From a virus, in IMG/VR virus record IMGVR_UViG_3300025101_000075, positions 1-35,429 of that record: a stretch of 35,429 bases of DNA; one strand, 5' to 3'. A program made the position numbers and the translations under genes. The notes under the pieces were generated by a model. It had not been told where the DNA came from. It was given only the letters and a program-made list of their open reading frames with translations, and did not search any database. Positions 1 through 23,308 of this stretch are shown piece by piece (positions within the stretch are counted from its first letter, which is position 1; every line of letters begins with the position of its first letter).

Positions 1-3000
1 TCACCTTCAAATAAAGCAGATTCTGGCTTAGCTACATATTCTATATCTTTTAAATTAAACTTTTTACCAATTTCAGGATATGCTTTTTTCCAAGACGTAT
101 ACTGTTTCTGTATATTAGCTAATTCCCCTGGTGATCTATCGAGTTCTTCTACTATTTCTTTATTTTTTAATAAATTTCTTTTTGCTTCACCAATAATTTG
201 TAATAAATCTTTCCTACTGTCAACTCCTAATTGTAAAGCTTTACCAATAAACTTAGCTTCATCTTTGTTTAATTTGTTTCTTTTTATTAAATCAGGTAGT
301 TTTAAATTTGGATCTTTTAAAGATTGTTCTATAGATTTTTTAATCTTTTCCGATGCTTGGAATTTATTTGCGCCAGCTTTTAGATCTGCTAATAGTTGTT
401 TTTTAGGTATAGCGGATTTAATATCCATACCTTCTATCTTTTTTCTTACAACTGTATTAGCTATTTGATAACCCTCTAGCTTGGCAACTCCTTTAAGTAA
501 TTGACCAATATTTCTATCATACTTATTTAATTGACCAGCTTCTGTAATACCTAATTCTTTTTGTACTTTAGCTATAGTCTCATTAGATATTTTACCTTTA
601 AACTCTGGTTTTAATTCCCATACACCAGTTTGACTAGTTAAACCTTTAGACCTTTTACCGGTTTTATTATAAAAAGTATTTAATACTCTATTATTCATAC
701 CAGTACCATAACCATAAACATCTCTAGACACATCTAACTTTTCTAAACCAATGTTAGTTTCCATATCACTAACGTTTGTTTCAGGTAGATTCTTTATAAA
801 TGTTTCTACTTTACTTTTATTAGAAAAAGCTTTTTGTATATTACCAGCTTCAGAAGGTTCTGGAATACCATCTTTAATTTTCTTAGCGTAAGTAAGATTT
901 TTCTTTGAGTCCATTATTTTAGCTTCAGGAACATCAAACGCTATTGAAGCAGCTTTACCTCCATAAGTTTCTCCTACTCCTTTAAAACCACCAGTACGCA
1001 TACTTACAGCGTCTGCCTCTGTAAAGTCTATAGCGTCTTCAATTTCTTTTGCTTTAGGTTTTACATTTGGAGCTTCTAATGGATTTATTGTTTTAGTATC
1101 TTTAGTAGTTTCAGATTTACTAGACTCCTTAGCTATCATAGCTTCCTCAGGATTAAGATCTTTTGATTCAGCATCAAAACCTCTTTCGCCTTCTTTGGTG
1201 GGTTGTTCTAATCTAACTTCAGGACCTTCAAATTGACCTTGCTTAGCTTTGTCTAAAGCTTGTTTAAATCGTTGAGTCAAACGTTGATTCATATATGCTC
1301 CAAATGGTATTCTTTTACCATCAACAACTGGCTTGTACTGACCTAAAGCTTCAACAAACTCAGCATTAAAAGCAGATTGAAATTCTTTTTCAGAAACTCT
1401 TTTAGAAGGTTCTAAAGCTTGTATTCTAGGATTATTAGCTGCTCTTCTAGCTCTAACCTCTATCATGGTATTATTAGCTTTAGTTAATTCATCTGTAATT
1501 TGTTTTTTAAACTTAGAATCTTTTATATCCCTAACTCTTACACCACCACTACCTTGATCAATAATTTTAGTTTCAATTTTTTTGTTTACTTCAGAAGCAT
1601 CTTTACTACCTTTAGATATTATTTTTTCCGATGCTTGTAAACCCGTTGTTTCAGTTTCCACACCTAAAGCATCTGCTTCACGCTTTAAAAACTCATTAAT
1701 ATTCTTACTATTATACTTGCCACTCAAGACAAAGTCTACAAATTTAATAGGATCATTTAACGCGTCGTTGTACTCTTTTTCTGTAAGATCTTTAGTGCTT
1801 TGTTTTTCACTAGACTTTCTTTGTGCTTCAGATTTTAAGTTATTAAAAGCACCGTTTTCATTTAACTGTACAAACTCATTAAGAAATTCTTTAAGTTCTG
1901 ATAGTGGCACTTCTTTACCTGATACAATTTGTTCTAACACAGCATCATTAAAACCAGGTCTTTTAGACATTTCAGCACTAACCATGCTAAGTATACCTTT
2001 CTCTTTTAAACCTCCTATAAAGTTATCTAAATACTCTCTAGCCTCTTGCTCTGCTTGTTTTCTTGCTCCTTCTATATCTCTAGTATCTTTAGCTATAACT
2101 CTTGCTCTAGCCTCTATAGCTTCATCACCTATTCTTCTTTCAAATGGATGATGCCATATTTCGTGCACAGCTGTTCCACCAACATTTTCTCTAGCTGTAG
2201 CTTCTGTATTTACTAAAGCTATTGATTTTCCATTAACAACACCTTGATAACCAAAACCAGTTGGACTAAAATTACCACCGTTCTCCTCCATGAACTTCTT
2301 CATTTCAGCGTCGTTCATTTCTTTTATATCAAAGCCAGCTTCTTTATATTCATTAATCTCTTTTAGTTCTTTGCTAGTTCTTTCTACTTTGCCTTTTTCA
2401 ATTAAATCTTTTTTATTTTTTAAAACATCATTTAATTTAGAATCGATTTCATTTAATTGAGTTTCATAATCTGCTTTATCTAATCTATTAGCTTCATAAT
2501 CTTTCTTTAATTTTTCTTTGGCACCTTCCAGTCTACTTTCAGCTATTGATTCATCTATATATTTTTGAAAGTTAGGGTTATTAAGATCACCTTGAAAACG
2601 TCTAGTAGCTATATCTCTCATAGAATAACTAAAGTCTACTACGTTCTGCGCTTGAGCTTTGTCAAGACCGTATAACTCTAACATTTTAAAACCAGACGTT
2701 CCATCACTAGTAAAAGACGCGCCTTCTATTACAGCTAAGTTTTTAGCATTAAAACCACCAATAGATATAGCATAAGCAGCTTGTTCCAGCTCCTTAAAGC
2801 TACCCATAATTTCAGGATTAGCTAGATCTTTAGCTAATATATCTAACGGTATTTTTAATTTCAACCTATTAGCATTAAACTCTAAGTTAGAAATTTCTTG
2901 TTTCTTTTGATTTTCAGTTTTATCACTTTCGTTTATTTCTTTTTTCTTAGCTTCTAAAGCTTCGTCTACCCTATTGCTAAAAGCTTCTTCTCCTTCTTTA

Positions 3001-5993
3001 TATTCCTTATTACCGTCAGAAACAGTTTTCATTCCAAGAGATCTTCTTAGTTTATTCCATTGTGGATTATTACCTCTTAATAAATCAATCTCTGTTCTAA
3101 ATCTTTCTATAGTTTGTTTACTATATCTATCTGGTCTAGATAATCCTAGAAATAATAAAGCTCCACCTAACTCCATTAAATGAGCAGGATCTGTTACATC
3201 ATTTAAAGCTTGTGAAACAGTTTTATCTCCAGTTAATACAGCTCCCACATTATCAGCCGCACTAATAGTAAAAGCACCTGTTCCAGCTCCTACTACTTTA
3301 CCACTAGCCGCTGTTGCGGTTCTACTTATAGACTTAACTGTTCTATCTACAACACTTCCAGTATACTTTAAAGCCCCACTTTTAGTCGATGCTGTAGTTG
3401 GTACTTGGTAAAAATATTCTAAAGCATTTCTTTGTGCGGCACTACCATTCTCGTATGTTTTTAATATAGCATTATTAAATTTGTTAGAAGCTTGAGCACC
3501 TTTTAATCTTATTGCACTAGCTGTTAAAGCAAATAGCTCTGGATTTTCTATACCAGGTCCAAAACCTAAACCTCTTTCCATCGCATTACTACCTTGTAGC
3601 CCAATATACTCTGTCATCACAGCGCTAGTATATGAAGCAACGCTTTTAGCAACTCCTTTTGACATACCAGATCTTAATAAACCTCTAAATGTGGCAGCTC
3701 TTAAAGCAGCAGGACCTAATCCCGCGCCACCAGTTGCTACAGTTGTTAAGTATATCTCAGCTCCCATACGAACTAAACCAGGTATTGATTTACCTGAACT
3801 CTTCCAAAGATCATGCTCTATAGTAGCTAAATTCCTTACGTCTGAATCTGTCTTTTTTATACCATAAACATCTTCTATTATATCAAAACCTAACTCACGT
3901 TGCTTATCCTCAGTTAAAGGAGCATTCATACCTATAGCTTCTGGTGTAGCTTCACCGATACCCTCTACAAATCTACCCACACCAGCTAAAAATCCATCAC
4001 CTACAGTGCTTTCATAAGTTGTGGGATCTGCATTTAAACTTTGAGCTAATAGCAATGTTGATCTATAATCTAGTAACTCATTCCACCTGCTAGGTAAATT
4101 ATCCTTAGCACTAGCATTACTTTCAAATAAAAAACTATCTTGGTCAGATTGAGGTAATGGAGTAAGAAGAGAAGGCATTTCGCCTGTTTCAACCCATTTG
4201 TTTATTTTTCTGAAGTCTTCAAAAGCACTACCCTCTGCTCCAACTAATTCTTGGCCTAAAGCACCAAATAATTGAAAGTAAGTACTCTCATTCATAGTCT
4301 CACTTAAACCTTTTCTTTTAAGATCTTTAGCAATGTTTAAAAGCTCTCTGTCAACATCAAGTAATTTTTCATCTAATTTATCAGGAGCTTCAAGAAGTAA
4401 ATCCTTTAAATCGTTTTTCTTATTTTGATTTTTAAGATTAAGTGCATCTACTTGGTTTTGTCTATCTTTTCTAACAAACTTACCATCTTGTTTTAATAAA
4501 TTAATCTCATCGTCATTTAAAAAGTCTTGAAGCTTTTCATTATATTGCTTGTATGCTAATGTTTTTTCTTCACCAGCTTCCATTTTGTCAATGGCCTGCT
4601 TTTCAGCAATTAAACTTTTTAACTCACCTTTGCTTTTATAAAAAGGTAATTCAGCTTCTAGTATTCTAGCGCCATCTTCTTTAGCTCTTTTAGTTCTATT
4701 GTCTTGAACTGTTAAAGCTATAGCATCCTCTTCCGCTTTTAACCTAGCTTCTTCCTTAGTAAGAGTGTTGCCTTCTTTGTTTAATATGTTTTTTTGTAAC
4801 TTGTCTACTAACTCTTGATCTACACCTTTTTCTTTAACATCTTCAATTTCTTTTTCATTCTCTTCTCTCTCACTTTTTTCATTAATGTAATCATTGTAAG
4901 CAGTCATAACTTGCTTACCTTTATTGTTAGGACCCCACTCTTGAGAACCATCTAACCACTCTCTAATATTATTTCTTATCTCTTGGTTATCTTGAACAAC
5001 TCCTCTAGCTGCAACAGATGATGGTCTAGTAAACGAAGGATCTCCAGCATTGAAATTCATGGAGCTAGCAGAACCACCACTAGACAAGTAATCTAAAAAA
5101 CCTTGATTATTCTGCGCGTTAGCTCTAGCTGTAGCTACAACTTCTTTAGGCATACCCAACTTTTCTAAAGTTTGTATAGTCTTATTAAGCTCATCATTAG
5201 ACATAGTTCCCTCAGCATCACCACTTATATTAGGATTAAAACCTTCGTTTATTAACGACTTTACTTCATTTTGATAATCAAAATTTTCTTTAGCTTTTTT
5301 GTTTTGCAAGTCTTGTTGCCAAGCAATGTTCATTTGACCAAACTCAGTATCTACAGCTATATCTATAGCTTCTTCCATAGAATTAACCTGAGGATTAGAT
5401 CTCATTATTTCTGCTGCTTTTTTAGTTAAACCAGGTGTTACCTGCATTTCAACATCTTGACCTTTGTCGTTTTTAACCATATAGTCAGGTCCTAACGTTC
5501 TTACGTCATCAGAATTTTTATATTTACCTTCTTTATTAAATTTAGATTTATTAGCGAACTCTAAAAAATTTATATAATCAGCTCTACTTTGAGCTTCTCT
5601 ACCTTCAACATCACTAGGTACACCAGAAGGAACATTACCGCTTGATCTTGAAGCATTATAATCTGTGTTCATTCTCCATCTAAATACCTCTCCATCTTCA
5701 TTTGTTACATCTAGCTCATCATGTATATAACCACCTTTCATTGCAGGTGTATCAAAAGTTAAATGTGGATATTTAGCAGCTAATTTATCTTCTAAATCCT
5801 CTTCAGCACTATCAAAAAGACCTTCACCTTTAACGTTCCACTCTTCAAAAGATATATCATTGCTAATTGGTGGAGGAATACTATTTAACCAGTCATAATC
5901 ATCTTCAGTTTCTTCTTCACCTATAACCTCTACGTTTTCGACAACATCATCGTCAAATAAACCTGCGTATAAATCTTCTTCTGGATCTTGCAT
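1..5993 (-). CDS. Giant virion (ejected/internal) protein with HExxH zincin motif, 3' end outside window
   Basis: The frame is open from an ATG at 5993 to the window edge, giving at least 1,997 codons with no stop, so the C-terminus is missing. The N-terminus is very acidic. Long charged helical stretches follow, then an Ala/Gly-rich hydrophobic zone at about residues 735-960. A zinc-protease motif HEIWH lies at residues 1277-1281, preceded by GGTAV. A stretch at 1540-1640, containing FGAYMNQRL (1564-1572) and NPEEAMIAKE (1614-1623), looks like sigma-70 region 2 and its downstream linker. The gene follows the 683-residue protein by 7 bases and ends the run of tail and internal proteins. Very large proteins at this place in podovirus-like phages are usually packaged in the virion and ejected. 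Protease and sigma-like roles are inferences from motifs; the virion role comes from context. Confidence 0.8.
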   Translation of the reverse strand, partial: MQDPEEDLYAGLFDDDVVENVEVIGEEETEDDYDWLNSIPPPISNDISFEEWNVKGEGLFDSAEEDLEDKLAAKYPHLTFDTPAMKGGYIHDELDVTNEDGEVFRWRMNTDYNASRSSGNVPSGVPSDVEGREAQSRADYINFLEFANKSKFNKEGKYKNSDDVRTLGPDYMVKNDKGQDVEMQVTPGLTKKAAEIMRSNPQVNSMEEAIDIAVDTEFGQMNIAWQQDLQNKKAKENFDYQNEVKSLINEGFNPNISGDAEGTMSNDELNKTIQTLEKLGMPKEVVATARANAQNNQGFLDYLSSGGSASSMNFNAGDPSFTRPSSVAARGVVQDNQEIRNNIREWLDGSQEWGPNNKGKQVMTAYNDYINEKSEREENEKEIEDVKEKGVDQELVDKLQKNILNKEGNTLTKEEARLKAEEDAIALTVQDNRTKRAKEDGARILEAELPFYKSKGELKSLIAEKQAIDKMEAGEEKTLAYKQYNEKLQDFLNDDEINLLKQDGKFVRKDRQNQVDALNLKNQNKKNDLKDLLLEAPDKLDEKLLDVDRELLNIAKDLKRKGLSETMNESTYFQLFGALGQELVGAEGSAFEDFRKINKWVETGEMPSLLTPLPQSDQDSFLFESNASAKDNLPSRWNELLDYRSTLLLAQSLNADPTTYESTVGDGFLAGVGRFVEGIGEATPEAIGMNAPLTEDKQRELGFDIIEDVYGIKKTDSDVRNLATIEHDLWKSSGKSIPGLVRMGAEIYLTTVATGGAGLGPAALRAATFRGLLRSGMSKGVAKSVASYTSAVMTEYIGLQGSNAMERGLGFGPGIENPELFALTASAIRLKGAQASNKFNNAILKTYENGSAAQRNALEYFYQVPTTASTKSGALKYTGSVVDRTVKSISRTATAASGKVVGAGTGAFTISAADNVGAVLTGDKTVSQALNDVTDPAHLMELGGALLFLGLSRPDRYSKQTIERFRTEIDLLRGNNPQWNKLRRSLGMKTVSDGNKEYKEGEEAFSNRVDEALEAKKKEINESDKTENQKKQEISNLEFNANRLKLKIPLDILAKDLANPEIMGSFKELEQAAYAISIGGFNAKNLAVIEGASFTSDGTSGFKMLELYGLDKAQAQNVVDFSYSMRDIATRRFQGDLNNPNFQKYIDESIAESRLEGAKEKLKKDYEANRLDKADYETQLNEIDSKLNDVLKNKKDLIEKGKVERTSKELKEINEYKEAGFDIKEMNDAEMKKFMEENGGNFSPTGFGYQGVVNGKSIALVNTEATARENVGGTAVHEIWHHPFERRIGDEAIEARARVIAKDTRDIEGARKQAEQEAREYLDNFIGGLKEKGILSMVSAEMSKRPGFNDAVLEQIVSGKEVPLSELKEFLNEFVQLNENGAFNNLKSEAQRKSSEKQSTKDLTEKEYNDALNDPIKFVDFVLSGKYNSKNINEFLKREADALGVETETTGLQASEKIISKGSKDASEVNKKIETKIIDQGSGGVRVRDIKDSKFKKQITDELTKANNTMIEVRARRAANNPRIQALEPSKRVSEKEFQSAFNAEFVEALGQYKPVVDGKRIPFGAYMNQRLTQRFKQALDKAKQGQFEGPEVRLEQPTKEGERGFDAESKDLNPEEAMIAKESSKSETTKDTKTINPLEAPNVKPKAKEIEDAIDFTEADAVSMRTGGFKGVGETYGGKAASIAFDVPEAKIMDSKKNLTYAKKIKDGIPEPSEAGNIQKAFSNKSKVETFIKNLPETNVSDMETNIGLEKLDVSRDVYGYGTGMNNRVLNTFYNKTGKRSKGLTSQTGVWELKPEFKGKISNETIAKVQKELGITEAGQLNKYDRNIGQLLKGVAKLEGYQIANTVVRKKIEGMDIKSAIPKKQLLADLKAGANKFQASEKIKKSIEQSLKDPNLKLPDLIKRNKLNKDEAKFIGKALQLGVDSRKDLLQIIGEAKRNLLKNKEIVEELDRSPGELANIQKQYTSWKKAYPEIGKKFNLKDIEYVAKPESALFEG
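2151..2165 (-). other. HEIWH zinc-metallopeptidase motif inside the giant protein
   Basis: Reading the minus strand in the frame of the ATG at 5993 gives His-Glu-Ile-Trp-His at residues 1277-1281, followed by HPFERR. This is the HExxH signature in which two histidines bind zinc and the glutamate activates water. It sits in a plausible helix after a Gly-Gly-Thr-Ala-Val strand or turn. The third zinc ligand cannot be assigned by eye; acidic residues in the following GDEAIEARAR segment are candidates. Confidence 0.65.
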
Positions 5994-6000
5994 ATTGAAT

Positions 6001-8052
6001 TTATTTATAATCTGAACTATTAAATTTACTATTACCACTAACAGAGGCTTGAACTTCCATAGCAAAAGCTGGATCTGATTCAACTGCTTTTATAAAAGCG
6101 TCAAAATCAGCTTTGTCTTCACCTTCTAATTGTTTATAATCTGTTCCCTTTGTAAAAGTAAATCCATTTTTAGTTTTACTAAAGTATCCTAAATCTCCCT
6201 TTTGAGATGTACCCATTACGCTTGCATCTACAACAAGTTTATTACCATCTGCTCTAACACCATCAACAGTTACAAGACCTTTCTTAGCTGTTATTTTTTT
6301 ACCATCTTTTAGTATGTTGGCTTTATTAGCTCCAGTAGAGCCATCTAAAGAAAATCTATCAACTCTAGCTTGATCTTTTGAATTCATAGAACTTCTAAAA
6401 GTTACCTTAGTATTGTCTTTTTTAACATCAGTAGATGTTGGCGTGTTAGGTTGTAATGTTGTATTTTCAACAGCTGGACCTGAACCTCTCATAGCGCTAG
6501 CTGGTTTTGGGCCCATTGGCTCCCATTTTTCACCATTATATATTATTGATTTAGTTTTACCATTTGATTCAAACTCATAAACGTCACCTTTTTTTGGTGG
6601 TGATGCTTTATCTTTTGCATCTAATTCCTTTGCGAGTTCTTCTTTGGAAGTGCCTGTTAGTTTAGTTACTTTGCCACTTGTAGGTATATCACTACTGCTA
6701 GATTGATTTGTAGACTCATATCCTTTAGTTAATTCTTTAAGAATTTTTTTATCCTCTGGAGTCGCTGTTCCTTCTTCTACTTTCTTTTCTATTTTTAATA
6801 TTGCATCTACTCTCTGGTTTTCTGTCATTTTACCTTTTGAGCTAGATCCGCCTTGGTTTTTTAACGCTGCTTTTGCTATTGACGCTCTTTGAGCAGTGGT
6901 ATAGCTATCGTCAGTTAGCTTTCTAGATGTAACTATTTCGTCTGGTTTTATCAAACCATCTTGAGGGTCTAGATATTTAAAATAAGCTTCGACAGCTGCT
7001 TGCTGCTCTGCGCTACCTTGCCAAGTACCTGCTTGAGCTTGTGTAGCGTACATTTGATCTATATCAACATCATCTGCTGTTCCTGCTATTTTATCTTCAC
7101 CTAACAAACCTAAACCGTTTAACGCGTCTATAGATCTTTGATCAGGATTTTCTCCAGTTGCTTGACTCATTAATCCTTTAAGAACAACAGGGTAACTTCT
7201 ACGCATTTCATTACTGTCTGACATTATTTTATCTAGCTTACCACCTTCAACAAAAGACCTTAAGTGATCATTAGCTACTTTATAGTTCTTGCTTTTTTGT
7301 TGATTATATCTATCAGATTGATCATCTATGGTTTGAACCATTGACTTATAATCTGCTTTTTCAGATAATCCAGCTTGCCATTCTTGTCTTAATTTTGCAG
7401 GATCTCCATAAGTTTGAACGGCCATGCTACCATCTAAAGCTCCTTTAACTAAACTGCTTCCACTGATTATTTTTTGATTACCATCCGCATCTAAAACAGG
7501 TTTGTTTTCTTCATCAAATAGTAAATATTCAACATCTCCTGTTTTAAAATTGTATTGCTTTTTTACATTTTTACCATATTGAAGTAAGTTTGCTAAACTG
7601 TTATTATTAGCAGCATCAATAGCTCCTGGGTTAACACCATCTATTTTTGCACCAGCTTCCCAATCTTCAATTAAAGCGTCATAAGATCCTCTCTGTTCCG
7701 CTAATTGCCTTGGTACTTCTCTTATTCTTCTAAGCTCAGCTTGACAATCAGGAGTGTCACAATTCATAAGATCCCAATATTTATTATGCATGTTATGTAG
7801 GAAAGCTTTTGTGTCTGCTGCATACCCTCCTTCAGGCCTATATTGTTCTATATTTTGATACCAAACTTGATCACCTAAATCTCTTTTTTGCTTTTGTTGT
7901 TCAAGTATGCGCATGTTTTCCTTAATGTTCTGCTGCTGTGTAGCATTAATAGCATCAAACTCAGAACGCATATTTTTTCTAAAGTTTGATATTTCTTTAT
8001 TAATAACATCGCCGCTTCTATTAAGAATTATTTTTGGATCAGTATACCCCAT
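6001..8052 (-). CDS. Putative internal virion/ejection protein, 683 aa
   Basis: I do not recognise a named family. The protein is hydrophilic and rich in Gln, Lys, Asp and Ser. Residues 1-75 look like a continuous amphipathic helix. A Cys pair lies in CDTPDC near residue 100, and a Ser/Gly/Lys-rich low-complexity linker runs over about 400-460. No signal peptide or membrane segment is evident. It lies between a 236-residue protein with hydrophobic ends and the giant left-edge protein, the position where T7-like and crAss-like phages place internal core or cargo proteins. The ATG at 8052 follows the previous stop by 17 bases. An internal/ejected role is inferred from position and composition only. 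Confidence 0.7.
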   Translation of the reverse strand: MGYTDPKIILNRSGDVINKEISNFRKNMRSEFDAINATQQQNIKENMRILEQQKQKRDLGDQVWYQNIEQYRPEGGYAADTKAFLHNMHNKYWDLMNCDTPDCQAELRRIREVPRQLAEQRGSYDALIEDWEAGAKIDGVNPGAIDAANNNSLANLLQYGKNVKKQYNFKTGDVEYLLFDEENKPVLDADGNQKIISGSSLVKGALDGSMAVQTYGDPAKLRQEWQAGLSEKADYKSMVQTIDDQSDRYNQQKSKNYKVANDHLRSFVEGGKLDKIMSDSNEMRRSYPVVLKGLMSQATGENPDQRSIDALNGLGLLGEDKIAGTADDVDIDQMYATQAQAGTWQGSAEQQAAVEAYFKYLDPQDGLIKPDEIVTSRKLTDDSYTTAQRASIAKAALKNQGGSSSKGKMTENQRVDAILKIEKKVEEGTATPEDKKILKELTKGYESTNQSSSSDIPTSGKVTKLTGTSKEELAKELDAKDKASPPKKGDVYEFESNGKTKSIIYNGEKWEPMGPKPASAMRGSGPAVENTTLQPNTPTSTDVKKDNTKVTFRSSMNSKDQARVDRFSLDGSTGANKANILKDGKKITAKKGLVTVDGVRADGNKLVVDASVMGTSQKGDLGYFSKTKNGFTFTKGTDYKQLEGEDKADFDAFIKAVESDPAFAMEVQASVSGNSKFNSSDYK

Positions 8053-9193: not shown

Positions 9194-11101
9194 TTATTGT
9201 GATGATACAACCCACTTGGATCCCACGCAGTATAATTCTTTCATGCCTCCAACATCTGTAGTATCATCTGTTGTTAATCTTACTGTAGAATAATATCCTT
9301 TTATACCACTCATTGCTTGTCCAAATACAATTTCACCTTCCATAGGTGGTGAAGTGTTAATTAAGTTTGCAACATATTTATTTTCTTTTAAGAAAAACCC
9401 TGCGTAGTTTTTATACCCAGTTACAGGATCTGTAAACTCGCCATCAGATAAACTTAAAACAGGATTCGTTAAATCTTGTGAAGGATACCAAGCGCCAGAA
9501 AAAACATCATAAAGCTTTTCAGTAAAATCTGAAACAAAATGCGAGACTTCCCAGCCATTACTACCTTCATAACTAACTGTTTGAAAGTTTTTTACAATTG
9601 ATGGTTTAGGGTTAAATATAAACTCTATAGAAGAAGAATATCTACGATCGTAAAACTTACCATAATTGTTAGGTTGTGTGTCGCTGTAGTGTTTATATAT
9701 GTTGTAATTATCAATACTGTAAAAATTGTTTTTCAAACTACCAATTAAAGTTGGATTATAACTGTAAAAACTCACCCAACCATTTATAGATTCGTCAAAG
9801 TTAACCGTTTTATAAGTTATAGTATCTACTCCATTGTTTTTTCTAAAAGGAATTGTTCCACAAGCGTTATAGGTAGTCTCTTGCTGTATAGAAACCACAT
9901 AGTTTTTATTGTAATTATCAAACCCACCAATAATCTTATCACTTTTATAGGTGGTAAATCCAATGATGCTAGGCCACGCAGTTTCTCCGTATGTTGCAGG
10001 ATTCCAACTAGAAGAAACCGTTACCTCACATCTACCATAATCACCACTAGATTGATCATAAGAATAATCTACTACAAACGTGTTATCTAAAGTGTTACCT
10101 CCAACATTTAATAAAGATCCAATCTCTATATTATCACAATCACAGCTTTCTGTAGAATTTACAGAAAAAGTAATTATTTTACTAGCAGTACTAGTTGTTA
10201 ATGGTTCTAAAATAAAATTTAAAGTACTACGTACTTTGTAGTCTTTAGTTATATTTAATTCATCTCTAAAGTAATCTGTCATTCCATAGTTTGATATCTC
10301 TGTCAAACCGTCGTTAGATAATCTAAGTATGCAATTTCTATATTTATCTGAAAAATATTGTCTAAAACCATATTGAGCCCAAGACTCAGGGTTTTTACTA
10401 ATACCATATTCACCTTTGTAAGGTACTATTTGACCTATTACAAGTTTAGCAGAAGTTACAGGAGTACCAACACCTTCCGCTGAGTATATAGCGTCTTTGT
10501 CAATTAAAGCTTTACTAACTTTATTTTCTTGAAAAACTGTAAGATTAGTATCATAAGCATACAACTTTTGAATACTACCATTTTCTGGATCTAATGATTT
10601 AGTAATAGGTTCTGCAGTAGAAAAAACATTCGTGTTGTTTACACCTGTCCTGGAATTAAAAATACCTGAATATATTAAAGCGTTAAAACGATGTAATTGT
10701 TTATTGCTTTCTTCCACAGCATAAGCTTTAACACCAAAATCAACCGTAGTATTATTATAACCACCTCTTATTCTAGCTTCTTCAACAAACCATTGTCTTT
10801 TTTCACCCATTTCTGCACTACTATTGTGGTTTATTAAAGCACCACCCCAGGGAAATTCTGGATAAGATATTGTTATACTAGTATCATTAGGCAGAGGACT
10901 ACTTATTTCGCTTCCCCAAGGTAAACCAGGCCAAGTTGGTAATATATAGTTTAACGTATCTGCCACGTTAGCGCTATTACCACCCTTAACATTTGTTGTC
11001 ACAGTAGAGTTGTCATCTTCTATATTATCTGTAAAGTCTTCGCCTACAACTTTTTTAAGCCAAAACGAGTTAAAATATTTAACGGGAATTTGATAAGCCA
11101 T
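9194..11101 (-). CDS. Putative tail/muzzle structural protein, 635 aa
   Basis: This is a beta-rich protein with many aromatic, Asn and Thr residues and little predicted helix. Segments such as WFVEEARIRGGYNNTTVDFG (about 104-123) and YGFRQYFSDKYRNCILRLS (about 240-260) resemble a tail protein recurrent in marine podovirus-like genomes; this is recollection, not a search. A Cys motif CDCDN occurs near residue 320. No signal peptide is present. It follows the 1,890-residue nozzle-like protein after 29 bases and precedes the acetyltransferase, so it probably forms the distal part of the short tail, comparable in position to the crAss-like muzzle. Receptor binding is possible but nothing in the sequence shows it. 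Confidence 0.68.
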   Translation of the reverse strand: MAYQIPVKYFNSFWLKKVVGEDFTDNIEDDNSTVTTNVKGGNSANVADTLNYILPTWPGLPWGSEISSPLPNDTSITISYPEFPWGGALINHNSSAEMGEKRQWFVEEARIRGGYNNTTVDFGVKAYAVEESNKQLHRFNALIYSGIFNSRTGVNNTNVFSTAEPITKSLDPENGSIQKLYAYDTNLTVFQENKVSKALIDKDAIYSAEGVGTPVTSAKLVIGQIVPYKGEYGISKNPESWAQYGFRQYFSDKYRNCILRLSNDGLTEISNYGMTDYFRDELNITKDYKVRSTLNFILEPLTTSTASKIITFSVNSTESCDCDNIEIGSLLNVGGNTLDNTFVVDYSYDQSSGDYGRCEVTVSSSWNPATYGETAWPSIIGFTTYKSDKIIGGFDNYNKNYVVSIQQETTYNACGTIPFRKNNGVDTITYKTVNFDESINGWVSFYSYNPTLIGSLKNNFYSIDNYNIYKHYSDTQPNNYGKFYDRRYSSSIEFIFNPKPSIVKNFQTVSYEGSNGWEVSHFVSDFTEKLYDVFSGAWYPSQDLTNPVLSLSDGEFTDPVTGYKNYAGFFLKENKYVANLINTSPPMEGEIVFGQAMSGIKGYYSTVRLTTDDTTDVGGMKELYCVGSKWVVSSQ

Positions 11102-18150: not shown

Positions 18151-18873
18151 TTATGTTTTTTGGTTTTGTTCATTTTTAGCTGCTTCAGCAGATGCAGCTT
18201 GAACGATTTGAGGATCACGTATAACAACACCAGCGTACATTAAAACTCTAAGTACGGCTTCAACTTGATCTTGCTCGCTTATCTCGAAATTAACAGAACC
18301 AGTAGAAGGTATTGTTGGACCACTACCAGTTGGTGCTCCATCCCAAATATATTGACCTTGTGGTCCCTCTCTATAAGCCCAAACAATTGGTTTAGGTTTT
18401 CTTATATAAGAGAAGCTTATATCTGTTTTAATTTTTTCCGGAAAAACGTAAATTTTATCACCTTCTTGTATATATAAAGGATATTTTAAAGATGGCTTGG
18501 TTAGATTAGACATGTTTAACCTTAAGTACTCTGATCGATCAGTCATTTGAACTTCTTGTTCATTTTTATATATAATACCACCTAACCTATGAAGATCTTC
18601 AGGAATTAAAAAGTAATCAGTAGTATATATACCTGGATTAATAGTCTTAAAAATTGATATTTTTTCCTCTATATTATCCACCCTATCCGCATATTCGTCT
18701 TGAAAGCCAGGACCTCTTAACTGTTGGTTTAAGTCTTCAAAGTACTTTTCAAATATTTCTAATTGTACCTGACTGGCTATTTTATTAAATTCAGCAGGTG
18801 TTAGATAACCCCTTTGTTCTTTGTTTAAAATCAACAAGACAGTTTGATATACTGTGTTTACGTTTATAGCCAT
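18151..18873 (-). CDS. Putative head-completion / connector ring protein, 240 aa
   Basis: The N-terminus (INVNTVYQTVLLILNKEQRG, about residues 3-22) is helical and leads into TPAEFNKIASQVQLEIFEKY, a pattern I associate with adaptor proteins of crAss-like and Cellulophaga-type podoviruses. A beta-rich middle (YFLIPEDLHRLGGIIY; KYPLYIQEGDKIYVFPEKIK) is followed by an Ala/Gln-rich helix at the C-terminus. Such proteins dock under the portal. It starts about 15-20 bases after a strong terminator hairpin, so its expression must come from read-through or from a promoter I cannot locate. The gene immediately downstream is the 446-residue ring candidate. Confidence 0.7.
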   Translation of the reverse strand: MAINVNTVYQTVLLILNKEQRGYLTPAEFNKIASQVQLEIFEKYFEDLNQQLRGPGFQDEYADRVDNIEEKISIFKTINPGIYTTDYFLIPEDLHRLGGIIYKNEQEVQMTDRSEYLRLNMSNLTKPSLKYPLYIQEGDKIYVFPEKIKTDISFSYIRKPKPIVWAYREGPQGQYIWDGAPTGSGPTIPSTGSVNFEISEQDQVEAVLRVLMYAGVVIRDPQIVQAASAEAAKNEQNQKT

Positions 18874-18939: not shown

Positions 18940-19689
18940 TTAGTTTAACTTTTTCTGTATAGAATTAAAAACTTCTATACCTTCGTCGGTTTTTAAGAAA
19001 GCTGCAAAAGCAGAATATGGGTTTTCTTCAAATGGAACTTGCATTAGTTTTTTACCATTGCTAGCCCAAGCGAAAGTCCTCTGATCTTGAGATAATTTAA
19101 TTATCTTTTGTTCAGTTGCTTTTATAGCCACATTTCTTAATTCTACGTTTTCATCCGTAGCTAAATCTAAGAACAAGTAAGGATTTCTTTTTGCAAATAT
19201 AAGTAAATCTCTTTTAAGCTCTTTAGAACTCATGTTAGACACACTAGAACCAACCTCAACTCTTAATACAGCTTCAGCTTGATCTAATGGCATTTCCCTA
19301 GCATAAGAAATAGCCTTAAATTCACTTTCCAACACTTGTAACTCATCAGTAGCTTCTTTAACCTCATCTAACTCTGTATAAACTTTATTTCTTTTTGGAT
19401 GATATAGTGATAACAACTTTTGCAATGCTTGTTTTTCTTTTGGAACGTTTAATACTCCATCTCTAAAAACAATATGCTCCAAAGTAGCCATTCCTTTTTG
19501 TTCATCTACAAAAGGACTACTCTGGTTAGTTGCGTACCTAAGCTCACGTTGAGCTTTTATATCTTCATCAAAATACAATAAAGGATACCTAGCTGTATGT
19601 TTTGAAGATAACGTGTAAGTTACTGGAGACTGATTATTTTTTAAATAATAATTTCTATCTTTTATCTCCCATTGTTTTTCATTTTCCAT
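18940..19689 (-). CDS. Conserved-type hypothetical virion-region protein, 249 aa
   Basis: I cannot name this family. The N-terminus begins WEIKDRNYYLKNNQSPVTY, a style seen in unannotated proteins near phage head genes. The middle holds a charged helix (about 108-130, rich in Glu and Lys). The C-terminal half has SSKELKRDLLIFAKRNPYLF and alternating helices. No signal peptide, membrane segment or cysteine pattern is visible. It is preceded by a TATAA-repeat leader and followed by a terminator, so it is the last gene of a sub-operon starting with the 438-residue protein or further upstream. It may be a minor head or vertex protein, but only position supports that. Confidence 0.6.
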   Translation of the reverse strand: MENEKQWEIKDRNYYLKNNQSPVTYTLSSKHTARYPLLYFDEDIKAQRELRYATNQSSPFVDEQKGMATLEHIVFRDGVLNVPKEKQALQKLLSLYHPKRNKVYTELDEVKEATDELQVLESEFKAISYAREMPLDQAEAVLRVEVGSSVSNMSSKELKRDLLIFAKRNPYLFLDLATDENVELRNVAIKATEQKIIKLSQDQRTFAWASNGKKLMQVPFEENPYSAFAAFLKTDEGIEVFNSIQKKLN

Positions 19690-19708
19690 AATATAATATA
19701 ATATAATT
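19690..19708 (-). repeat. Period-5 TATAA-type AT repeat leader before the 249-aa gene
   Basis: Immediately upstream of the ATG at 19689 the minus strand reads as four imperfect TATAT/TATTA pentamers with no purine-rich SD. It probably serves as an unstructured AT-rich leader for translation initiation, as in Bacteroidota genes. Repeat slippage could vary its length. Confidence 0.5.
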
Positions 19709-19722
19709 TTTGTTTTTAATTA

Positions 19723-21039
19723 TTAAGATTCTGAGGGTGGTTCTTCTGACTCACAAAATGCCTCAACCATATCGGCACACTTTTCCTGTGAATTTGTTTG
19801 ATCCTCCACATTTTGAAGAGCTCCTTGAGCAACAGCGAGTTGATTTTCTAAAGAAGCAATTTCAGCATCGAGTGAAGATATTTGCTCGTTTGTGTCTGTT
19901 AATTCTTTTTGAAGTTCTGTACGTTCACCTTCTTTCTCTTTTAACTCTTCTTCCTTCTCATTTTTAGCTTGGTTGTAGGCCTCAGTACATGCTGCTATAG
20001 CAGATGGATCTGATCCTGCCGCATCAAGACATTCAGCATATTCACTTTCAATATCCTCTAAATCCTGTTTTAAAGTAAGAATATCCTCATTAATTTTTGC
20101 TAATTGTTCCTCTAATTGCTCTTGTGTTTCTTTTGCGTCTGCTCTTTCGCTCTCCTTGTTCTTTTGTTCTTCTTCAATGTTTTTCACTTGGTCTTCCAGG
20201 TTTTCCTTTTCTTGCTCAAGTTCCTCCTGACATTTACCTGTAATTTCACTAAAACCTTCCGGCTTCATTTTATTGACAAACCTAGAACAAGATTCATCTA
20301 TAGCTTCAGCTATTCCGGCTGTAAGTTGATTATCCACATCTTGCATAGATACACCATCATAAAAAGCGTAACTTTCAAAAACCCTTACATTAGCACCTGG
20401 ATAAGATGATCCTACAATGTTATAAGGATTGTTTAAGCCTCCGTTTTCTAAATTTTCGCAAGTAGCACATGAAATAAGCATTGAAAGTATAGCTGGTTTG
20501 TTAACAAACATTGGAAGCTTTCCTTGTCTGTAAGTTTGCGTATTATCATTGTTAGAGGCAATTGTGTTTTCCCAATCTTTTGCTAACATTTCTAGTAGCT
20601 TAGTATCTTGTAATGATTGTGTTACCTTAACTTCAAGTACAGTATTATCTGTTTTTAAAAAATCTAAGAAAGATCTTTTAAAATTAGCTCTATATCCACC
20701 ATAAACAGAGGGAGGTTCTTTTGCATCATATTGAGTAATAGCGTCTAAGTATTCTTTATTAAAAGTTCTATAACCGCCAATATTATTGTCACTTACGTAC
20801 TTTATAAATTCCTTAAACGATTCACTTAAAGTAACTACGTCAGATTGTTGAAAAAGAAAATAACCACCCCAGTAACTACCATCAGTTTTTACCCCTTTTA
20901 TAGTAAAATATTCTTCTGTACCGTCAACGTAAAGTATGTCTTTTTCAAGATCTGGTAAAGCAACCGTCTCTTTTTGAACACCAATAACAGCTGGCCCATT
21001 AGTAGAATATTTAACTTTTTTAATTTCTAAGTTTTTCAT
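19723..21039 (-). CDS. Virion-region protein with Cys-bracketed coiled-coil hairpin, 438 aa
   Basis: Residues 1-260 form a mixed, beta-rich globular region (YFTIKGVKTDGSYWGGYFLF near 44-63) with CATC at 191-194. From about 270 to 420 the protein becomes a heptad-rich Glu/Lys/Gln coiled coil broken once by a turn at about 338-350 (DAAGSDPSAIAA). Cysteines bracket both arms nearly symmetrically: C270 and C421 at the base, C337 and C351 at the tip. This suggests an antiparallel helical hairpin that disulfides could lock, projecting about 10 nm. It follows a terminator and sits between a small unknown head-region gene and the connector genes. A head fibre, vertex spike or tail appendage are all possible. 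I do not recognise the family. Confidence 0.65.
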   Translation of the reverse strand: MKNLEIKKVKYSTNGPAVIGVQKETVALPDLEKDILYVDGTEEYFTIKGVKTDGSYWGGYFLFQQSDVVTLSESFKEFIKYVSDNNIGGYRTFNKEYLDAITQYDAKEPPSVYGGYRANFKRSFLDFLKTDNTVLEVKVTQSLQDTKLLEMLAKDWENTIASNNDNTQTYRQGKLPMFVNKPAILSMLISCATCENLENGGLNNPYNIVGSSYPGANVRVFESYAFYDGVSMQDVDNQLTAGIAEAIDESCSRFVNKMKPEGFSEITGKCQEELEQEKENLEDQVKNIEEEQKNKESERADAKETQEQLEEQLAKINEDILTLKQDLEDIESEYAECLDAAGSDPSAIAACTEAYNQAKNEKEEELKEKEGERTELQKELTDTNEQISSLDAEIASLENQLAVAQGALQNVEDQTNSQEKCADMVEAFCESEEPPSES

Positions 21040-21050
21040 TTTTATAGGTT

Positions 21051-21082
21051 TAAAAACACCTCCCTAAATTATAGAGAGGTGT
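21051..21082 (-). terminator. Rho-independent terminator after the 248-aa head-region gene
   Basis: On the minus strand ACACCTCTCT-ATAATTT-AGGGAGGTGT pairs as a 10-bp stem with one G-U wobble (21082-21073 with 21065-21056), a 7-base loop and then TTTTTAAA. It fills the gap between the 248-residue and 438-residue genes and faces the direction of transcription, so it should reduce expression of everything after the capsid genes. Confidence 0.88.
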
Positions 21083-21092
21083 ATTTATTATT

Positions 21093-21839
21093 TTATGTAT
21101 TAAGTATTACATCTTTGAAATCACTAATAGTATTATAACCAATAGCTTCTAAAGTAAGAGATCCACTATTACCACAAACTTTTGCAGCATAAGCTTCTGC
21201 ATCCGCCGCGGTAAAAGTAGCAACTTCAACCAATGGCCCATTTTTTGGTAATCTAAAAGTTGGGTATCCTTCATTTTCAGCTGCAACTTTCATTTTTTCA
21301 ATAATAGCTTGCAACTCATTTCTACAACTAGAAGCCTCATCTCGACGCTGGTCAAGATCATTTTTTTGAGCTTCTGTCATTATCGGTAGAACAACTGAAA
21401 AATCAACCACTGCACCTTCACCTTGAGCTGCTAGGTTAAAGATTTTATCAACTTGAGGTTTTATAAATGCTGCTTTAATATCATCAGCATTACCTCCGCT
21501 ATTTGCTATAGCTTGGTAAGGAGATATTTGCCCCAAAGCCTCAAATCCATTACCAACTGCGTTAGGCCAATATTCTTCATTTTCCAATGAAAAATTTGGA
21601 AACTTTATTTCTAAAGTCTCAGCACCACCGACACTAGGTTGTATATTTAGGGTTAATTCATCACCTGAAATAGCACCATAAGCGTATGTACTAGTTGGAT
21701 CTAAAACTAGTTCATAAACATCAACATCTGGTTCAGCACAAGGCTCATCAAACTCATCTCCGTTCGCATCTACCCATTTACCACAAGGTGATGGAGACTG
21801 TGGATTGTCTTTTATTAAGTTAAATCTTATTGTTCCCAT
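21093..21839 (-). CDS. Hypothetical head-region protein (possible capsid accessory), 248 aa
   Basis: I do not recognise this protein. It is acidic, with a Cys pair at residues 19 and 34 around an Asp-rich loop (WVDANGDEFDEP). Beta-rich segments follow (VYELVLDPTSTYAYGA; LEIKFPNFSLENEEYWP), then a helical region with SSCRNELQAIIEKMKVAAE near 170-189. There is no signal peptide or membrane segment. It lies 26 bases after the major capsid gene and just before a strong terminator, so it should be transcribed as highly as the capsid protein. That fits an abundant decoration, auxiliary capsid or head-fibre subunit, but only by position. Confidence 0.6.
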   Translation of the reverse strand: MGTIRFNLIKDNPQSPSPCGKWVDANGDEFDEPCAEPDVDVYELVLDPTSTYAYGAISGDELTLNIQPSVGGAETLEIKFPNFSLENEEYWPNAVGNGFEALGQISPYQAIANSGGNADDIKAAFIKPQVDKIFNLAAQGEGAVVDFSVVLPIMTEAQKNDLDQRRDEASSCRNELQAIIEKMKVAAENEGYPTFRLPKNGPLVEVATFTAADAEAYAAKVCGNSGSLTLEAIGYNTISDFKDVILNT

Positions 21840-21865
21840 AATTTATTTTTTAAAAGGTTAATAAA

Positions 21866-23308
21866 TTAGTCTACGAACAATACAAAATTATTAGCTGCTT
21901 GAACACATAGACATCTTTCAGATAGGTAATGAACCTCCATAGCATCTAGAGACGATGTATAAGCACCACCTACAGATCCAGTAATCCAAGATTTCATTCT
22001 TCTATCATCAGTTTCGGAAGCTCTATATCTTACATGTAAGAAAGGTCTTCTGATATTTGATCCTAACATTTGATCGTACACTGTAGATGTTCCAGCAGGA
22101 ATCATTACACCTTTAATATCGTTAACTAAACCTCTAGTAGAAGCATCGTTTAAATATTTCCAGTCAGTTTTGTAGAAGTCATAAGAACCTCTTCTGAAAC
22201 CAGAAAAACCAAAGTTAAGTGCCATTTCAGCTTCATTGTCAAAAAGACCGTAAGAAGCAGCGCTTGTAGCGTTATATCCACCACCAGCTTGAGCAGCAAT
22301 CATGTCATCAAAGTCAAGAGCAGTAGCTCTGTCTAAAAATAACATGTTTTCTTCAATAGCTCCTTGTAAATCAAGTTCTTGTAATATAGCATCAAAATCA
22401 CCTAACGCACCAGCTCCAGGAGCAGCAGCACCAGAAAATTGAGAGTATACATTACCTCTTTCTCTAATAGCATCAAACATACCTTGTGTACCTGCACCAG
22501 CTCCGCCAGCGAATCCACTACCAGCTAAACCGCCGTTTGGATCAGCTTTAACACTTTCAACCATAGCCATTTCAAGATAATCTTCATATCTTAATCTAGT
22601 TTCTGATTCAGCCTTCATATACCATAAGAATCCAGATGTTCCGTCTTCTGTAGCAACTTCAACCCAACCAATTTGAGCAGTGTCAGATCCATTAACTAAA
22701 TATTTGTCTTTAATGATTATCGGTCTATTACTAAACTGAGTGAAAGTAGGAGTTACAGATCCTTCCATTCCTTCAGTTCCTTTAGCAAAATCAGAACCAT
22801 AAACGAAAAGTTTTAAACCATTTTCACTTAAAGATCCCCAGTTAGCAACCGTGTATGGTAAAGCTTCAAAAGAAATTCCTCCAGTGTTTCCAGGATTTGG
22901 AGCAGCTGTAACTAAACCTCTTAACGTTAAGTTATTAGTTTCATCATAAACTACAAAAGTTTGATTTTTTCTAATAACAACTTCATTTGGTGGAGTTGCA
23001 GAATTAACTGTAAATGTAGTTCCATTAACTGATACATCAGTATAGCCAATGTGTAATCTATTTTGTTCAGACCAAATAACTTGATCAGATGTCATTGGCA
23101 TTTCAGCGCCAACCATTCTTAAAAAACCTGATAACGTTCTATTACCAAATCTTTCAACTTCTTGTTCATAAAGTTCAGGTAGATATTGTTGTGCAAAATC
23201 TGCAAAGTTTTCTCCATTCTTGTCATTCCACTGTAAGTAGTTTGTTGATAAAACTGATTGATCTTGTGTAGGCAATAATCCAGGCCCAAACGATTCAAAT
23301 TGTCCCAT
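21866..23308 (-). CDS. Major capsid protein, HK97-fold candidate, 480 aa
   Basis: Length (480) and place, after portal and scaffold-like genes, fit the major capsid protein. Sequence blocks such as YLPELYEQEVERFGNRTLSG (N-terminal arm), PTFTQFSNRPIIIKDKYLVN and GFLWYMKAESETRLRYEDYL resemble the capsid proteins of crAss-like and related marine podoviruses as I remember them. A Gly/Ala-rich stretch near 260-275 may be a flexible loop. Codons are better mixed than in neighbouring charged proteins. The leader before the ATG is a run of A and T with no SD. It is probably the most abundant protein encoded here, lying ahead of a terminator one gene downstream. No protease cleavage site can be assigned. 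Confidence 0.85.
   Translation of the reverse strand: MGQFESFGPGLLPTQDQSVLSTNYLQWNDKNGENFADFAQQYLPELYEQEVERFGNRTLSGFLRMVGAEMPMTSDQVIWSEQNRLHIGYTDVSVNGTTFTVNSATPPNEVVIRKNQTFVVYDETNNLTLRGLVTAAPNPGNTGGISFEALPYTVANWGSLSENGLKLFVYGSDFAKGTEGMEGSVTPTFTQFSNRPIIIKDKYLVNGSDTAQIGWVEVATEDGTSGFLWYMKAESETRLRYEDYLEMAMVESVKADPNGGLAGSGFAGGAGAGTQGMFDAIRERGNVYSQFSGAAAPGAGALGDFDAILQELDLQGAIEENMLFLDRATALDFDDMIAAQAGGGYNATSAASYGLFDNEAEMALNFGFSGFRRGSYDFYKTDWKYLNDASTRGLVNDIKGVMIPAGTSTVYDQMLGSNIRRPFLHVRYRASETDDRRMKSWITGSVGGAYTSSLDAMEVHYLSERCLCVQAANNFVLFVD

Follow-up and report, generated by a model that had tools for sequence, protein, structure and literature searches.

What is the role of the 438-residue protein encoded just behind the major capsid protein (MCP) of this virus, and what kind of genomic position does its gene occupy? 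The window, which is the whole 35,429-nt (35-kb) virus record IMGVR_UViG_3300025101_000075 (positions 1 to 35,429), comes from a crAss-like marine podovirus. Its portal and terminase are of the environmental Bacteroidota podovirus type (phrog_6547, E 1.6e-137; phrog_6681, E 1.4e-164), and they stand beside two further features of the crAss-like virion module, a muzzle C-terminal domain and a ring protein of the gp34 type, the ring-protein family profile matching PhicrAss001 gp34 (7qoj) weakly (E 0.0017). Among annotated phages, MCP identity is highest to a spring-water podovirus (51%), followed by Maribacter phage Panino (44%), the Flavobacterium elemo phages (42%) and, within the Pervagoviridae, Cellulophaga phi40:1 (36%). 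The only homologue found for the protein in question, g438, lies at L084:2632-3966 (IMGVR_UViG_3300012936_000179) and is 38% identical over its length (E 9e-100). Genes run in the order terminase, portal, a 390-aa cysteine-free protein, MCP, g248, g438, g249, ring protein, g446, a 1890-aa structural protein (g1890) and a muzzle-domain protein, and include the following:

21866..23308, minus strand: MCP, from similarity to the relatives' structural protein (phrog_13704) and gene order
21093..21839, minus strand: g248, first slot gene, 248 aa, with homologue L084_221 (33%) and weaker similarity to L085_225, L153_181 and L003_217
19723..21039, minus strand: g438, 438-aa accessory protein with an N-terminal part of ~260 aa without known fold and a C-terminal hairpin, from the open reading frame, its homologue and AlphaFold2
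18940..19689, minus strand: g249, conserved gene closing the slot (phrog_34748)
18151..18873, minus strand: g240, ring protein related to PhicrAss001 gp34, from a profile match
9194..11101, minus strand: 635-aa protein with the crassvirus muzzle C-terminal domain PF25729 (E 4.8e-8, above the cut-off)

Additionally, an open reading frame of at least 2027 aa (3-6083, minus strand) extends past the window's left end, and a giant gene of 11.5 kb is similarly placed in MW202828.

We favour the reading that g438 is an accessory structural protein of the capsid surface, probably of lower copy number, which carries a projecting rod and is encoded in an optional, hypervariable slot, and we put the probability of this reading at about 0.5. 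Its virion location, disulfides, outward orientation and function are what we infer from the evidence that follows.

As a prediction, the C-terminal region is confirmed to be an antiparallel helical hairpin. AlphaFold2 was given the window protein, as a monomer, together with its one homologue (a shallow alignment), and yielded these elements:

19750..20262, minus strand: coiled-coil hairpin, residues 260-430 (helices 260-341 and 345-430), from AlphaFold2 and structural matches
20008..20016, minus strand: three-residue tip turn, residues 342-344, from AlphaFold2; tip length differs by one residue in L084

The model is confident over residues 281-390 (pLDDT 88-95), declines to 57-77 towards the base and lies below 50 for most of residues 1-260. 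The first-pass annotation had described two long charged arms joined by a turn, about 10 nm in length, and had proposed structure prediction as a check. The two helices and the turn agree with that description, the predicted arrangement is an antiparallel hairpin and not one long helix, and the length holds between the cysteine pairs, where 70 residues of helix amount to about 10.4 nm. The last 176 residues (263-438) are acidic (pI 4.05) and heptad-rich. Solved hairpins superpose at an rmsd of 1.7 Å for 9cpc_3G (Z 13.0, 124 residues) and p85 iSH2 5dxh_E (Z 12.4, 125 residues), and of 3.0 Å for Rad50 6zff (Z 12.3, 123 residues), Z values of 12-13 being usual for helical models and demonstrating the arrangement only. 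The fold itself is common (SMC, p85, dynein stalk), and the full g438 model found low-TM coil matches only in BFVD. The register of the hairpin is unsettled because a scan for charge and hydrophobic pairing between the arms gave no clear optimum and automatic heptad assignment places the cysteines at differing positions in g438 and its homologue. A monomer prediction is blind to oligomers, and the same region could in principle form a parallel, intertwined dimer or trimer in place of an intramolecular hairpin. We consider this highly improbable, as two helices of matching length with a turn are predicted with confidence over 281-390, and both the tip cysteines and the arm lengths are conserved around that turn.

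The preferred reading of a rod on the capsid surface also draws on the eight cysteines of g438 (residues 191, 194, 251, 270, 337, 351, 421 and 429), which are arranged as follows:

19987..20031, minus strand: tip pair, C337 (20029-20031) and C351 (19987-19989), conserved in L084
19777..20232, minus strand: base pair, C270 (20230-20232) and C421 (19777-19779), conserved in L084 with arm spacings of 67 and 70 kept
19753..20289, minus strand: outermost pair, C251 (20287-20289) and C429 (19753-19755), possible third bracket with putative pairing, conserved in L084
20458..20469, minus strand: C191-x-x-C194 motif of the N-terminal part, inside the well-conserved stretch CATCE..GG..NPYN.VGSSYPG of the L084 alignment

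All eight are retained in L084, which has no others; the chance that eight random aligned columns would all be identical is 5e-4 (2e-3 for the five C-terminal cysteines). Both proteins keep spacings of 67 (C270-C337) and 70 residues (C351-C421), their arms align free of gaps at 24% and 30% identity, and the only length change between C270 and C421 is one residue in the tip, where L084 is shorter. C270 and C421 stand about 74 and 77 residues from the centre of the turn. In an idealised antiparallel Crick coiled coil, which is a rough model, the pairs 337/351 and 270/421 both come to roughly 3.5-6 Å Cβ-Cβ at one register, given core positions. Judged from sequence and model, the cysteine pairs would form disulfides, and a third bracket of C251 and C429 is plausible. 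No further cysteine-capped hairpin was found among the plus-strand open reading frames of the fetched loci besides that of L084.

These positions bear out the earlier proposal that two cysteine pairs flank the tip and the base almost symmetrically, and its conservation check returned eight of eight in the sole homologue found. The wider picture of a stiff, disulfide-locked rod on a globular base fared less evenly: the hairpin prediction and the conserved cysteines speak for the rod, its locking and projection are conjectural, and the supposed base coincides with the N-terminal 260 residues, where pLDDT is below 50. The same cysteines could instead bind metal or remain reduced if g438 were a non-virion factor made in the cell for assembly or host interaction. 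C191-x-x-C194 could be a metal site, and the phi40:1 homologue of the adjoining g249 is not annotated by mass spectrometry (MS). However, near-symmetric cysteine pairs across a hairpin resemble disulfides and not metal sites, and accessory genes beside the MCP are usually structural; we therefore judge a non-virion role to be improbable.

Homologue searches place g438 in a very small family. Phage isolates, IMG/VR and GTDB genomes were searched with g438 alone, with its N-terminal part only, with an alignment of the two homologues and with a degenerate DNA pattern; the L084 contig was the only match. A query with g248 gave no matches. Against Pfam, PHROG and PDB sequence families g438 had only generic coiled-coil matches, in agreement with the earlier remark that no named phage family is known to have this plan, and residues 1-262 matched no Pfam family even at E 5. 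Matches to tape measure, SbcC, DUF4094, filament, TRIM25 and tetherin proteins are compositional: they are confined to the coil and differ between both homologues. An assignment as a tail tape measure protein was rejected on similar grounds, with PHROG matches almost wholly in the coil and changing in the homologue, and with g438 being 438 aa long and encoded beside the MCP.

These weak tape-measure matches, together with the acidic, charged coiled coil, could be taken to indicate an internal head protein, scaffold-like or ejected cargo, whose coil acts as an assembly or ejection element; PhicrAss001 does carry cargo proteins in head and tail (PMC10172136). Yet the usual scaffold position between portal and MCP is already held by the cysteine-free 390-aa gene, which is 96% conserved, the tape-measure matches sit in the coil and shift with the homologue, and conserved cysteines combined with hypervariability suit an exposed protein better. 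An internal role thus appears rather doubtful to us, and a capsid-surface location remains the preferred reading.

The hypervariable slot is a more interesting discovery than the hairpin fold. Defined as the interval between the MCP and g249 (19690-21865 in the window), it is empty in 75 of the 118 non-duplicate relatives that have both flanks, is filled by a single gene (about 90-130 aa) in 31 and by two or more genes in 12. Many occupants start M-x-x-I-K or alike. For the small family that occurs most often, structure prediction gives a confident, beta-rich model (pLDDT 88.9). This model has no confident match in the PDB, where it resembles PH domains only weakly, and no confident resemblance to known decoration proteins; in BFVD it comes closest to ~100-aa viral proteins that are nameless or listed as uncharacterised. 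The first slot gene is cysteine-rich in L085:2488-3165 (11 cysteines) and L003:6221-6871 (6 cysteines), while that of L153 has one cysteine in 181 aa; the similarity of g248 to these three is at profile level. Residues 19-34 of g248 include a short insert, CGKWVDANGDEFDEPC, which lies between two cysteines and is missing from the L084 homologue. A common base domain is unproven, because profile comparison found no signal between the N-terminal part of g438 and either the second slot genes of L085 and L153 or the ~200-aa slot family.

Slot contents diverge far faster than the flanking genes, and the effect is general. Between the window and L084, identity is 98.9% for the portal, 96.4% for the gene in the scaffold position, 95.4% for the ring protein, 94.6% for g446, 92.3% for the MCP, 83.5% for g249 and about 94% for the first part of g1890, against 33% for g248 and 38% for g438. 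L008 and L093 share 98% of the MCP, 99% of g249 and 100% of the ring protein, with a slot protein at 35%, and across relatives such as L007, L008, L093, L096 and L097 the MCP is about 98%, g249 96-99% and slot proteins 35-53% identical. Fast in-place evolution and recombinational replacement are indistinguishable here as the source of this change. Synonymous divergence in the first half of g249 (L084:4001-4750 against window 18940-19689) is about double that of the neighbouring genes. This may mark the edge of a recombination tract and suggests that swaps may extend into g249.

A tail component, whether hub, collar or fibre, would be in keeping with the ring and muzzle-domain genes downstream in the same block, and PhicrAss001 tail parts are disulfide-stabilised (PMC10172136). 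The slot, however, precedes g249 and the ring gene and lies directly behind the MCP, and its content changes while the ring protein and g446 stay 94-95% identical. We regard a tail role as unlikely and the capsid surface as the better candidate.

The MCP itself also changes unevenly. Residues 81-200 and 241-280 account for 32 of its 37 amino-acid differences between the window and L084. Synonymous changes are spread evenly over the gene, and protein-level change therefore fits this MCP region better than an imported tract. Residues 81-200 overlap, by position and not by structure, the surface-exposed E-loop insertion (79-180) of PhicrAss001 gp32 (PMC10172136). Phages whose slot is empty also vary most in the insertion region (ratio 4.2; the window/L084 pair, which served to define the region, gives 21). 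A specific coupling of this change to the cassette is weakened accordingly, and because the empty-slot control varies in the same place we take the MCP variability as fast change of the capsid surface and not as g438 binding. Within the MCP (21866-23308), changes between close relatives cluster in residues 88-167 and 259-272, with even synonymous change, whether the slot is filled or empty.

Between the two slot genes lies one further element:

21046..21092, minus strand: terminator-like RNA hairpin between g248 and g438, core stem about 21056-21082 (-18.7 kcal/mol, z -5.6)

All four genomes checked have an equivalent at the same place (L084:2579-2631, L085:3166-3222 and L153:3014-3083 in addition to the window). 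The hairpins are stable (z -3.4 to -6.3) and followed by T residues, with one stem sequence in the window, another in L084 and a third in the L085/L153 pair. A simple scan for the terminator consensus did not return the hairpin among its results. It resembles an intrinsic terminator, and would be expected to cut expression of the second gene relative to the MCP and the first slot gene.

The capsid-surface reading is built on the hairpin model, the conservation of cysteines and arm lengths despite low arm identity, the MCP-adjacent position and the variability of the slot, and also on the MCP variable region, the terminator-like hairpin and the cysteine-rich first slot genes of L085 and L003. 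Further support comes from phi40:1, where MS has detected most of the block's equivalents in virions: MS/MS annotation covers the portal, the gene preceding the MCP, the MCP itself, the ring protein and later structural genes, but not the genes at the positions of g249 and g446. Several observations weigh against it. The annotated isolates checked have no gene between the MCP and the g249 homologue, and hence offer no direct virion support; the phi40:1 homologue of adjoining g249 is among the genes lacking MS annotation; prediction produced no usable fold for the N-terminal 260 residues; and the data searched held a sole homologue. Additionally, variability of the MCP insertion is general, occurring also with an empty slot and giving no specific tie between MCP and g438, and no known decoration protein is a confident match for the small slot family.

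In the arrangement we propose, the N-terminal part of g438 would dock on the capsid shell, possibly jointly with g248, and the hairpin would project outward as a stiff rod that could become locked as its cysteines oxidise after lysis. Copy number would stay below that of the MCP and g248, since the terminator-like hairpin would reduce read-through. The rod may give host-cell polymers or particles a surface to contact, or may keep neighbours apart, and the fast change of slot genes could reflect selection or swapping at the virion surface.

More broadly, we suggest tentatively that a group of marine Bacteroidota crAss-like phages carries an interchangeable, hypervariable capsid-surface cassette behind the MCP, which may be empty, hold one small beta-domain gene or hold two genes in a ratio set by the terminator. 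The window's occupant would then form 10-nm rods locked by as many as three disulfides nested in one another, and such a capsid projection would be new; we consider this wider proposal possible but somewhat short of an even chance. To our knowledge, a cysteine-scaffold hairpin in an optional, fast-changing slot next to the MCP is new, the fold being ordinary. If the proposal is true, the head surface changes more quickly than the rest of the virion genes in the comparison, the ring protein and the first part of the large structural protein among them, which would point to the capsid shell as a contact surface under selection from host polymers, particles or competitors. The slot provides a clean comparative system of near-identical phages that differ mainly in their slot genes, and a short, self-folding, disulfide-locked rod would be simple to express and test.

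Among known systems, the PhicrAss001 head fibres gp21 (HFT) and gp29 (HFD) are trimeric and dimeric and have short N-terminal docking pieces (PMC10172136). Like the role proposed for g438, they are accessory capsid-surface proteins of some crAss lineages only, with proposed binding to cell or gut surfaces; unlike g438, they are not described as having a cysteine-bracketed hairpin in the available part of that source (PMC10172136). The g438 family profile had no sequence match among crassvirus proteins in the PDB, including gp21 and gp29, a distant relation being possible. The auxiliary capsid protein gp36 (AUX) of PhicrAss001 is MCP-associated and has two domains (PH plus FliD-like), and the weak PH-domain matches of the small slot family include 4dx9 (Z 3.5, below usual background), the entry quoted for the gp36 PH domain in PMC10172136. 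gp36 likewise gave no sequence match, and the N-terminal part of g438, at pLDDT <50, is without a demonstrated PH domain. Agrobacterium phage Milano, which is unrelated, has a T=9 capsid with disulfide-held decorations, and dithiothreitol (DTT) lowers the robustness of its virions; its disulfides are mostly inter-chain, in collar subunits and Ig-type linking proteins, with no helical hairpin (PMC10491603). A long intramolecular antiparallel coiled-coil hairpin is the plan of Rad50/SbcC, SMC, p85 iSH2 and the dynein stalk (6zff, 5xg2, 5dxh, 3vkg), as it is of the g438 model. Unlike SbcC/Rad50, g438 has no ABC ATPase head detectable in residues 1-262 with Pfam, even at E 5. The tip differs as well: the Rad50 coil ends in a CxxC zinc hook, whereas g438 has C337-x13-C351. 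Without a firm place in any of these families, g438 may by analogy work like a head fibre or decoration spike built on a rod of the SMC/Rad50 or p85 type.
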